Shown here: in pieces, positions 7,424-45,924 of the stretch
Layout of the letters: each line of letters starts with the position of its first letter
How positions within the stretch are numbered: position 1 is the stretch's first letter
Assembly: GCA_001941135.1 (NCBI GenBank)
Contig: MSHL01000042.1
Span: 1 to 64,000, forward strand
Length of the DNA stretch: 64,000 nucleotides
Origin: Ruminococcus sp. Zagget11
Lineage (GTDB): Bacteria > Bacillota > Clostridia > Oscillospirales > Ruminococcaceae
Reading direction: 5' to 3'
Made by a program: the position numbers and the translations under genes
Notes under the pieces: generated by a model
The model's database searches: none
The model's input: only the letters and a program-made list of their open reading frames with translations
Told to the model about the DNA's origin: nothing

Positions 7424-10400
7424 CTAAAATAGGGATATTTGCGCAGTCTTGGGAAGATCGCCCATTGCCCCTATGCTTTCAAGTGTTTCAATGATAGTTG
7501 CCGAAACACCGCTCTTTTCCTGAAGCTCCTCAATGGAGATAAAATCTCCCTCGTGGACAGCCTTGTACAGATATTTTGCGGCATTTTCTCCCACGCCCTT
7601 TACGGAGCAGAAAGGCAGCCTTATTTTGCCGTCCTCCACCACGTATTTTGTGGCGTGGGACTTGTAAATATCTATCGGCAGGAAGCTGTACCCTCTCGCC
7701 ATCATCTCGTTTACGATAAGCAGCATATCATACGTGCCGTCGTCCTTTGCGGTTTTATCATTTCCCTTAGCCTTGATAGCAGCCATCTTTGCCTTTACCG
7801 CATCTCTACCCATTATAGCCGTTTCCGCATCGAAGTCCTCACCTCTTACGGTAAATACCGTAGCGTAAAATTCCAAGGGGTAATATACCTTGTACCAAGC
7901 AAGCTTGTTGGCGGCAATTACATATGCAGCCGCATGGGCTTTCGGGAACATATATTTTATCTTCAGACAGCTGTCTATATACCACTCGGGCACATCATGC
8001 TCCCGCATAGTCTGTTTCATTTCCTCGGTAAGAAGCTTGGGAGCTTTTCCCTTACGGGTAATCTCCATTATCTGGAACGAAAGGCTCGGGTCAACGCCGT
8101 GATAAATAAGATATGTCATAATACCATCACGACAGCCTATAACCTCGGAAATGGTACAGGTGCCGTTTCTGATAAGATCCTGGGCATTTCCCAGCCATAC
8201 GTCCGTACCGTGGGAGAGTCCCGAAATTTGCAGCAAATCGGAGAACTTGGTGGGCTTTGCCTCCACAAGCATCTGCATAGCAAATCCCGTACCCATCTCG
8301 GGAATAGCCAGCGTTCCCGTCTGCCAGCCTATATCCTCGGCGGTAACGCCAAGAGCCTCGGGCGAAAGATAAAGGCTCATAACCTTTTCATCCGCCGTGA
8401 AAATATCCTTTGTCATTACACCCGTCATATCCTCCAAATGCTTATAAAGTGTGGGTACATCGTGACCCAGCTCATCAAGCTTGAGTATGGTATCATGGAG
8501 GGAATGGAAGTCAAAGTGGGTTGTAACTATATCCGACTTGGGATCTTCGGCAGGATGCTGAACAGCTGTGAAATCGTAAACCTCGTAATCGGAGGGAACA
8601 ACGACCATTCCTCCGGGGTGCTGACCTGTGGTACGCTTTACGCCCGTACAGCCCAGTGCAAGCCGACTTACCTCCGCCTTGGAAACGTGCTGTCCCGTAT
8701 CCTCAAGATAATGCTGAACATAACCGAACGCGGTCTTTTCCATTACCGCAGATATAGTACCCGCCTTGAACACGTTTTCACTACCGAAAAGGGTTTCTGT
8801 ATATTTATGCGCTTGGGACTGGTATTCGCCCGAAAAATTAAGGTCGATATCGGGGGCTTTTTCGCCGTGAAATCCCAAAAATGTTTCAAAGGGAATATCG
8901 TGACCGTCCCTTATATAATCCACACCGCACACGGGGCACTTTTTCGGAGGCATATCATAACCCGAACCGTACTCGCCGTTTGTAAAAAATTCGCTGCGAT
9001 GACACTTGGGACAAAGATAATGGGGCGGCAGTGAATTAACCTCGGAAATTCCCGACATATTGGCAACAAAGGACGATCCCACAGAACCTCTCGAACCAAC
9101 CTGATAGCCATTTTCATTGGAATTTGCAACCAGCTTTTGGGCAATCATATAAAGAACCGCAAATCCGTTCTTTATGATAGAGCCAAGCTCCTTATCCAGT
9201 CTTTCCCTCACTATATCGGGCAGCGGATCTCCGTAAACCGCTTTAGCCCTTTCCCATGTAATACGGGGCAGCTCCTCCTCGGCATTATCCATACTGGGTG
9301 TAAATGTTCCGGGAGGGATCGGCTGTATATCAGGGTCTACCATATCGGCGATTTTATTGGTATTGGTCACGCAAACCTCGTAAGCCTTTTCCTCGCCCAG
9401 ATATTGAAATTCAGCCAGCATCTCCTCGGTGGTTCTAAGGTAAAGGGGCGGCTGATGCTCCGCATCGTCAAACTTGTCGTACATAAGTATTTTCCTGAAA
9501 ACAGAGTCCTCTGGATTCATAAAATGCACGTCACAGGTAGCGACCACAGGTATATCCAGTGCATCGCCAAGCTCCACTATTTTGCGGTTAAGCTCCTGCA
9601 AATCCTCAACCGAGTTAATATCCTCGTAATCCTCGTCCCTTATAAGAAACTCGTTGTTGGGTATAGGCTGTATCTCCAGGTAATCGTAAAAGGAGGCTAT
9701 TTTGCAAAGCACGTCCCAAGGTCTGCCCTCACGGACAGCCGTATACAATTCACCCTGCTCGCAGGCACTTCCGATAATAAGTCCCTCTCTGTGCTTTATA
9801 AGCTGTGACATGGGTATTCTCGGTCGGCGGCTGTAGTAGTTCAGGTGACCCATAGAAACCAGCTTGTACAGATTTTTAAGTCCCGCATTGTTTTTCACAA
9901 GGATAATCTGGTGATAGGGCTTCAGCTTTTTCAGGTCAACATTCTTCATGCAGACATTTATCTCGCTGATCCTTGTAATTCTGCTCTCGTCCATAAGCCT
10001 CTGGGCAAGCTTTACAAAAATCCTCGCAAGCATTCTTGCGTCCTCATAGGCTCTGTGGTGGTCAAATTCACCCAGTCCCAAATGCTTTGCAACTATATCC
10101 AGCTTATGCTTTTTCAGTTCGGGAAGCATACTGCGGCACAGCACCACCGTATCGATAACGGAAAAGCGGAAATCTATACCGTACCTTTCGCAGGCTGTCT
10201 TGATAAACGACGTGTCAAATCCCGCATTGTGGGCGATAAGCACGGGATTTTCCCCGCAAAACTCCACAAATTTCCGAAGTGCCTCCTCTTGGCCGGGCGC
10301 GTCCTTGACCATTTCATCGGTAATTCCCGTCAGCTTTACCACCCTTTCGGGAATAGGCTTTTCAGGGTTTGCAAAGGTGGAGAAATTCTCCCCCAGCTCC

Positions 10401-20117: not shown

Positions 20118-20606
20118 TTATTCCTTATATTGTAAATACACCGTTTCCAATAGTGCCAAGTTACAACAGCGGGATTTTATATGCTTGTCATAACTCGTTA
20201 AATTACTATCCTCCGTTAAAATTAAATCCCTCAGTTTTTTTGCAGTTTCCTCTATCTCTTTCATATCTTCCTTAATAGCACGATATTGGTTCTGTAATAA
20301 TCTCCTATATGATAAATCACGCACGCTGTTAAAATCTAACATTATTAACACATTATCAGGCACAGGTATCATGTTGTTAAAGTTTATTGCACCCAATTTC
20401 CCATCTGCAATTTTGCGAAAATCCTTACCGTTTTTCATTCTTTGATGTTTAGCCTTAGGAGAAGTAAACGGTGCATAGTATTTAATATCGCCAACTTGAA
20501 ACACTATTCCCACATATGGTCTGCTTTCGTTTTTATTTAATTCTACCTTGTTATCAAAACGTTGCAAATAATGTATATATTCATCTTTTATGTAATAAAA
20601 CCTCAT
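20118..20606 (-). CDS. toxN: Type III toxin-antitoxin system endoribonuclease toxin, ToxN/AbiQ family
   Basis: 162 aa; FYYIKDEYIHYLQRFDNKV...YVGIVFQVGDIKYYAPFTSPKAKHQ..LGAINFNNMIPV...YRRLLQNQYRAIKE matches the ToxN/AbiQ pattern as recalled; preceded by tandem repeats and terminator. Confidence 0.88.
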   Translation of the reverse strand: MRFYYIKDEYIHYLQRFDNKVELNKNESRPYVGIVFQVGDIKYYAPFTSPKAKHQRMKNGKDFRKIADGKLGAINFNNMIPVPDNVLIMLDFNSVRDLSYRRLLQNQYRAIKEDMKEIEETAKKLRDLILTEDSNLTSYDKHIKSRCCNLALLETVYLQYKE

Positions 20607-20624
20607 ACTACCCCCATCACATAG

Positions 20625-20651
20625 AAAAAGGGGAACAAATGAATGCTCCCC
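20625..20651 (-). terminator. Intrinsic terminator between antitoxin repeats and toxin gene
   Basis: Minus strand GGGGAGCA-TTCATT-TGTTCCCC followed by TTTTT; position matches the regulatory terminator of known type III TA loci. Confidence 0.8.
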
Positions 20652-20659
20652 ATTTTTTT

Positions 20660-20773
20660 GGTTCTCTCTTTACGGCGGAGACTCGCCGGCTTTTTTAGGT
20701 TCTCTCTTTACGGCGGAGACTCACCGGCTTTTTTAGGTTCTCTCTTTACGGCGGAGACTCGCCGGCTTTTTAA
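20660..20773 (-). ncRNA. Type III antitoxin RNA (ToxI-like), 3 x 38-nt tandem repeats
   Basis: Three near-identical 38-bp direct repeats (plus strand ggttctctctttacggcggagactcgccggctttttta) starting at 20660, 20698 and 20736, immediately upstream of toxN and downstream of a consensus promoter on the minus strand. Confidence 0.85.
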
Positions 20774-20788
20774 TATTTCACTGAATCC

Positions 20789-20809
20789 GATAACGGTATA
20801 TCCGTTATC
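20789..20809. promoter_or_regulatory. Palindrome in the 5' leader of the antitoxin transcript
   Basis: GATAACGG-TATAT-CCGTTATC, perfect 8-bp arms between promoter and first repeat. Confidence 0.6.
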
Positions 20810-20817
20810 CTATCCTT

Positions 20818-20846
20818 ATTATACACTATTGACCTGCTTTTGTCAA
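20818..20846 (-). promoter_or_regulatory. Consensus sigma-A promoter for antitoxin/toxin
   Basis: Minus strand TTGACA (20846-20841), 17-nt spacer, TATAAT (20823-20818). Confidence 0.85.
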
Positions 20847-45273: not shown

Positions 45274-45924
45274 ATGATTACCGCAAACGATGTCAATATG
45301 AAACGCTTTGAGCAGGCAAGACCCGGTTACAAAACAGAAGAGGTTGACGAATTTCTTAAGGAAATTGCGGATCAGCTTGAAGAGATGATCCGTGAAAAGG
45401 ATGATTCCGAAAATAAGATCGGTATCCTTGTTGAGAGCATAAGAGAATATAAGAACGATGAGGAGGCTCTTAAGGAGGCTCTTATCGGTGCGCATAAACA
45501 GGCAAAGGTCGTAACGGCTCAGGCTGAAGAGGAGGCTGCCGCTATAGTTGCCGAGGCTAAGGCAAAGGCTGACGCCATCATTGCCGAGGCCAATGCAAAG
45601 GCTGACGAAATTATCGGATCTACAGGCATTCGCGCCGAAAAGGCAAGGGCGGAGTTCAACAACATGAAGAAAGAGGTTTCCGATTTCAAGTCGGAGATCC
45701 TCGGTATGTATAAGAAGCATATTACCCTTATAACATCCCTCCCCGACCTAAGTGATGATGAAACGGATCAGCAGAGTGCCGACCCCGCACCTGCCAAGGC
45801 TCCCGAAAAGGTAAGACCTACGGGCAGAGTAAAGGCGGCCGATACACCTGCGGATATGGATTCCACCGTTGTTTTTGGCACACCGGAAGCGGCATCCAAT
45901 CACCTTAATTCCCTTAAAAAATAA
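45274..45924 (+). CDS. DivIVA domain protein
   Basis: MITANDVNMKRFEQARPGYKTEEVDEFLKEIADQLEEM; coiled coil. Confidence 0.93.
   Translation: MITANDVNMKRFEQARPGYKTEEVDEFLKEIADQLEEMIREKDDSENKIGILVESIREYKNDEEALKEALIGAHKQAKVVTAQAEEEAAAIVAEAKAKADAIIAEANAKADEIIGSTGIRAEKARAEFNNMKKEVSDFKSEILGMYKKHITLITSLPDLSDDETDQQSADPAPAKAPEKVRPTGRVKAADTPADMDSTVVFGTPEAASNHLNSLKK

Follow-up and report, generated by a model that had tools for sequence, protein, structure and literature searches.

Identity and orientation of the repeat array

The question raised by this locus is whether three tandem repeats, lying within a 64,000-nt stretch of the Ruminococcus sp. Zagget11 genome (hereafter the window), belong to a functional RNA antitoxin and, if so, how that RNA is folded. 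A 38-nt array of 3.1 copies was delineated by TRF at 20653-20771 (96% matches, no indels), and its core was matched three times on the minus strand with at most three mismatches, against 0.00 matches expected by chance from shuffles of the window. Both searches bear out the three 38-nt units that the initial annotation had placed at 20660-20773. Unit 1 (20736-20773, minus strand) differs from unit 3 by one flank base; unit 3 (20660-20697, minus strand) was recovered as tandem repeat and as core match; unit 2 (20698-20735, minus strand) carries T (plus-strand A, 20723) where the two others carry C. ToxI units were absent from the rest of the 2.0-Mb genome when the latter was searched.

From 20846 down to 20118, the minus strand displays in this order a promoter, a leader hairpin, the three units, an A-run, a terminator and a 162-aa open reading frame. 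The promoter (20818-20846) is of the sigma-70 type, TTGACA-17-TATAAT, with 12/12 consensus bases. The leader hairpin (20789-20809; GATAACGG / CCGTTATC, 8 bp; leader z -3.3) lies where the predicted antitoxin transcript begins. A Rho-independent terminator (20630-20651) with an 8-bp stem and a T-run occupies the gap between antitoxin and toxin, and the reading frame (20118-20606) is the toxin gene toxN. Such an arrangement, with a short-repeat array directly 5' of the toxin on the same strand, one promoter and an intervening Rho-independent terminator, is the layout of type III toxin-antitoxin systems.

Promoter, terminator, toxin orientation and covariation (see below) all agree and constitute strong evidence that the functional antitoxin strand is the minus strand. 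The same strand had initially been proposed from the middle copy: the stem partner of 20723 is G (plus-strand C, 20714), giving U.G in the minus-strand RNA, where the U4.G13 wobble keeps stem 1, and A.C in the plus-strand RNA. The proposal was right and the wobble is real, but a single wobble in one copy is weak evidence, so that the strand could not be assigned from it alone. It is extremely improbable that the plus strand provides the functional structured RNA, or that the repeats function at the DNA level or as terminator-like hairpins serving the divergent neighbour gene. Although CGGCGGAGACTCGCCG followed by T-runs scores as terminator-like on the plus strand in two of the three copies, both promoter and terminator are on the minus strand, isolated plus-strand units are no more stably folded than shuffled sequences (z -1.0 and -0.4) and the A.C of the middle copy breaks the plus-strand stem. 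Moreover, in relatives the array stays on the toxN strand and covaries in the minus-strand pseudoknot.

The toxin and its known relatives

The 162-aa protein was assigned by homology to the ToxN/AbiQ family of endoribonuclease toxins. It matches Pfam PF13958 (E=4.5e-49), the PADLOC AbiQ model (E=1.9e-43) and four solved ToxN/AbiQ chains (PDB 7d8o, 4ato, 2xd0 and 4glk; best 7d8o, E=1.9e-19), and is the sole ToxN found in the genome. With the TenpIN equivalog model (NCBIfam) it scores 19.1 of the 90 bits required. According to the alignment, residues T52, S53, K55, Y110 and Q117 of E. coli ToxN are kept as T48, S49, K51, Y100 and Q107. The active-site set K33, T52, S53 and K55 can be counted as present, the residue at the K33 position being R29, the same as in Bacillus thuringiensis ToxN. 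E. coli ToxN K33, W57, N79 and F88 are replaced by R29, K53, G69 and N78, hence the activity and cutting specificity of the window ToxN are not assured.

The initial identification of the repeats as a ToxI-type antitoxin holds. The locus is very probably a complete type III toxin-antitoxin module that belongs to the ToxIN/AbiQ family, is located on the chromosome and acts through the mechanism proposed below. The analysis establishes its layout and homology, the pseudoknot by covariation and the covariation at the junction. ToxIN is a known kind of phage defence. The locus is an ordinary, intact ToxIN, which adds one chromosomal example and brings a structural refinement of the ToxI fold. No match above the gathering score was obtained with Rfam for the window locus; this absence is uninformative, since the E. 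coli ToxN/AbiQ-family locus used as positive control was likewise unmatched.

The locus resembles the ToxIN systems of Pectobacterium atrosepticum and E. coli (PDB 2XDB, 7D8O; PMC8860590) in its toxin (E about 1e-17 to 1e-19), its operon layout, its H-type pseudoknot and the conserved G5, A6, A19, A20 and G21 of the antitoxin. It departs from them by C12/A22 in place of U12/U22 and by boundary A-runs in place of AAAU/GAAAU sites, and from E. coli ToxIN by 38-nt units in 3 copies, against 4.6 in E. coli cluster 1, as well as by the four toxin substitutions mentioned above. With ToxIN of B. thuringiensis pAW63 (PDB 4ATO), the toxin aligns over its full length (residues 2-162, E=1.4e-18) and has in common the arginine at the K33 position and an NNMIPVP segment. 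B. thuringiensis ToxN cuts A-run sites (PMC8860590, PMC5086642). The pAW63 system is plasmid-borne, unlike the chromosomal window locus. An AbiQ/antiQ-family ToxIN from a lactococcal plasmid (L198, NZ_PP589698.1) encodes a toxin 44% identical to that of the window and antitoxin units AAAAAAGCGGTGAATCTCCACCATTAAGTGAGAATC with the same pseudoknot and the same UCUC/GAGA stem 2; it differs in being plasmid-borne and in its junction, where U22 goes with C12 or U12. The type III layout is shared by CptIN (E. rectale) and TenpIN, but the CptI pseudoknot has no triplex (PMC5086642).

Folding of the ToxI unit

In ToxI numbering (PMC8860590), the window unit reads C1 G2 G3 C4 G5 A6 G7 U8 C9 U10 C11 C12 G13 C14 C15 G16 U17 A18 A19 A20 G21 A22 G23 A24 G25 A26. 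Its fold was assessed on 42 distinct units found in close relatives (the clade), aligned by sequence and anchored on the AAG motif (alignment A2). MAFFT on full units (alignment A1) misplaced the 3' part of those with a longer loop, and loop bases 17-18 were therefore omitted from A2. The tested structure comprised stem 1 (1-16, 2-15, 3-14, 4-13), stem 2 (8-26, 9-25, 10-24, 11-23) and the pair 12-21. Standard pairs filled 93.4% of its cells, against 83.8 +/- 0.8 in column shuffles, which disregard the relatedness of the sequences, and 35-54% in slid versions. Both sides had changed in 47 cells (13.8 in shuffles) and the covariation score reached 0.428 (0.230 shuffled). In stem 2, 100% of cells pair with 28 double changes, the variants being UCUC/GAGA, UCCC/GGGA, CCUC/GAGG, UUCC/GGAA, CUUC/GAAG and UUUC/GAAA. 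Stem 1 shows 15 double changes; its weakest pair is 1-16, unpaired in 25/42 units. Pair 4-13 is U-A in 32 units, C-G in 8 and U-G in 2, a spectrum into which U4.G13 of the window's middle copy fits. G5, A6, A19, A20 and G21 each occur in at least 90% of the clade units and are all present in those of the window.

The H-type pseudoknot predicted for the window unit, as the initial annotation had it, is thus confirmed by covariation. Through the relatives, the ToxI fold could be tested by comparing natural sequences, and they support the crystal topology. The same covariation across homologues contradicts two details of the original model, which combined a 5-bp stem 1 including G5-C12 with a UCUC loop able to use either GAGA. 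That version is improbable. The five-pair hairpin CGGCG/CGCCG does exist as the minimum-energy fold when one unit is taken alone (-8.6 kcal/mol, z -2.3; -6.7 kcal/mol, z -1.7 for the middle copy), and 38/42 clade units are able to form 5-12. Nevertheless, the pair has no two-sided change and fails in the remaining 4/42 units, those with A5 or G12/A12; in a wider set of 151 units it forms in 0.60 versus 0.58 in shuffled columns. G5-C12 was consequently rejected, leaving a stem 1 of 4 bp. Base 12 tracks 21/22 instead of 5, and the solved ToxI RNA has four stem-1 pairs with base 12 placed with 22 and 21 (PMC8860590). As for the loop, GAGAGA allows UCUC/GAGA pairing in two registers within the window sequence alone. 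The downstream pairing originally proposed is real and its partner is the second GAGA (23-26, 100% of cells); the first was rejected, pairing in 76.8% of the cells of the 42 clade units with zero covariation.

Covariation within the clade also links two bases outside the pairs, 7 and 28 (MI 0.49, z 6.4, alignment A2), base 28 lying in the 3' overhang. Both are among the toxin-contacting bases of the E. coli complex.

Covariation at the junction

The solved E. coli ToxI contains a U12:U22:G21 triplet that is conserved across all E. coli clusters (PMC8860590); this triplet is not a defining trait of the ToxIN/AbiQ family. All three window units have C12/G21/A22 instead, and U12/U22 is found in sister units of the same clade. 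Judging from the alignment, C12/G21/A22 is a variant triplet predicted to stand at the place of U12:U22:G21. Bases 12 and 21 form a standard pair in 42/42 clade units, through six pair types, and bases 12 and 22 covary (MI 0.68, z 12.4), with U/U in 19 units, C/A in 11, C/C in 6 and C/U in 2. Within the clade, therefore, the U:U:G triplet of the junction covaries rather than being fixed. In 151 units from 69 loci, 12-21 pairs in 87% versus 50 +/- 4% shuffled. A hold-out set was assembled at the levels of genus, order, class and phylum; in its genomes, 12-21 pairing amounted to 69% versus 58% overall, and to 0.86 versus 0.81 +/- 0.024 where the numbering was unambiguous; base 12 was pairable with 21 or 22 in 98%. 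In other clades C12 is also combined with U22 or G22. As the hold-out replication is weak, the 12-21 rule is claimed for the window's clade, with a looser constraint on the junction elsewhere.

The combinations observed at 12/21/22 are U/G/U, C/G/A, C/G/C, A/U/U, A/U/C, G/C/A and U/A/U, several of which would fit classic major-groove triples (U.A-U, C+.G-C). Joint changes of the junction occur between neighbouring units of one array in L013, L014, L018, L021, L023 and L027 (the automatic parse of L027 unit 1 was off by one base; by eye it reads U12/G21/U22), and such changes between adjacent units of single arrays argue for repeated events. The junction may accordingly evolve as a block, a recodable base triple in which 12 and 21 stay pairable and 22 changes along, a proposal given here slightly less than an even chance. 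If true, a base triple would be swapped even between neighbouring units and could help set the match between antitoxin and toxin.

Proposed antitoxin processing and mechanism

An A-run at each unit boundary had been pointed out initially, and is present: 5 A ahead of unit 1, 6 ahead of units 2 and 3, and 7 past unit 3 (20653-20659, minus strand), where the run closes the array as the start of a partial fourth unit and is a candidate ToxN cleavage context. The runs resemble the sites cut by known ToxN enzymes, namely AA/AU (P. atrosepticum), GAA/AU (E. coli) and AAA/AA (B. thuringiensis) (PMC8860590). Among relatives (80-locus set, see below), a run of at least 4 A is located just 5' of the unit in 175/205 parsed units. 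Given the known ToxN sites (PMC8860590, PMC5086642) and this conservation, ToxN cutting within the A-run is a likely processing route. The A-run is shorter in more distant loci, consistent with toxin-specific sites.

In the proposed mechanism, one strong promoter would drive a transcript carrying the three ToxI units behind a 5' hairpin, and the terminator would let only part of the transcripts reach toxN. The A-runs would be where ToxN cleaves this precursor, and every 38-nt unit would adopt an H-type pseudoknot with a 4-bp stem 1, a 4-bp stem 2 and a junction of base 12 with 21 and 22. With the ToxI units bound, probably in a 3:3 ring, the active sites of ToxN would be blocked. Should ToxI synthesis fail, for example upon phage infection, ToxN would be freed and would cut A-rich mRNAs. 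For the window locus, the cutting site, the ring, the toxicity and the anti-phage role are extrapolated from the family.

A conserved hairpin in the leader

The hairpin at the 5' end of the antitoxin RNA is also conserved among the relatives. In 54 promoter-bearing loci, the leader from the -10 box to the first unit was compared with dinucleotide shuffles, giving a median z of -4.3 with 96% of loci below -1; control stretches of equal length 5' of the -35 box gave a median z of 0.0 with 26% below -1. The hairpin is found in nearly every relative with a recognisable promoter, its sequence varying between loci and its position being constant. It may cap the antitoxin precursor and stabilise it. 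Neither a leader nor a 5' hairpin is mentioned in the type III literature searched (PMC5086642, PMC5772629), which is no proof of novelty.

Distribution and genomic context

One scan of species genomes recovered 80 loci with toxins 38-67% identical to that of the window, the records bearing, among others, the labels Oscillospiraceae, Lachnospiraceae, Bacilli and Treponema. Most relatives with enough upstream sequence carry an array, on the same strand as the toxin gene, whose units measure 34-39 nt. The Treponema toxins are 58-60% identical to the window ToxN and accompanied by the same antitoxin type, which suggests transfer between phyla, the records in question being metagenome-assembled.

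The stretch of ~1 kb that contains the window locus has 33-38% GC versus 45-50% in its surroundings. Any ToxN was found in 7/20 congener genomes, and those congeners carry other repeat types. The AT-rich stretch, the patchy presence of ToxN and the differing repeats make a mobile, acquired module likely. In a search for an empty site, the flanking genes (SGNH hydrolase, polysaccharide deacetylase) were present in congeners, never adjacent. A low-GC insert whose ToxN is missing from most congeners, probably acquired and possibly dispensable, could also be a degraded, non-functional remnant of ToxIN; this is very unlikely, as the reading frame is intact, the catalytic residues are kept, the promoter is perfect, the terminator is present and three near-identical units retain an intact pseudoknot. 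The locus is best regarded as an intact ToxIN module.

Twelve ToxN loci (L097, L099-L102, L104, L130, L139, L140, L142, L144, L146) have three clearly different units per array upstream of toxN, in the order GGGTGTATCTCAGCCC..., CTTCTCTTGG..., GTTTCGC..., which is constant across several families, as though a separate pseudoknot belonged to each position. The window itself holds a second tandem repeat at 45533-45607 (33-nt unit, 2.3 copies, 85% matches), which probably lies inside a coding sequence.

ToxI-like units in phages

No close relative of the window ToxN was found in viral contigs by the first toxin scan. The degenerate ToxI core matched four viral contigs, three of them with ToxIN. 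The fourth (L195, MN689513.1) is Lactococcus phage CHPC1242 of the c2 group (Ceduovirus), with one unit at 7853-7890 and no ToxN in its 21-kb record. This unit equals a unit of a lactococcal plasmid ToxIN at 29/30 core positions. One to three ToxI-like units without ToxN were likewise seen in other lytic c2-type lactococcal phages (L200-L203, L208-L211). The phage units are flanked by the genes for the Holliday junction resolvase and the endolysin, and have the same orientation as the late genes. This site holds no unit in c2, bIL67, M6653, CHPC1170 and 5205F, one in CHPC1242, vL_6A, CHPC1183, 62402 and CHPC967, and two in vL_14A, vL_313A and vL_308A; 05802 has two plus one diverged.

AbiQ is active against c2-group phages (PMC5086642), its action on phage P008 is abolished when antiQ repeats are raised from 2.8 to 3.8 (PMC5772629), and PhiTE escapes ToxIN through expansion of ToxI-like repeats (PMC3475682). 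On these grounds the c2-type phage units are plausible candidates for natural RNA decoys against AbiQ/ToxIN, a role of which no report was found in the literature searched. Whether RNA mimicry is used naturally against a type III system can be tested directly on these toxin-less phage units.

A single ToxI-like stretch, AGGTGTTCCTCCACCTTAAGTGAGAATTGAAAAA, was also noticed beside the tRNA cluster of Acinetobacter phage Abraxas (L207:588-627, MT385367.1) and in about a dozen related T4-like phages; the match is weak (E-value 0.07-3), but stem 1 and the greater part of stem 2 can still pair.
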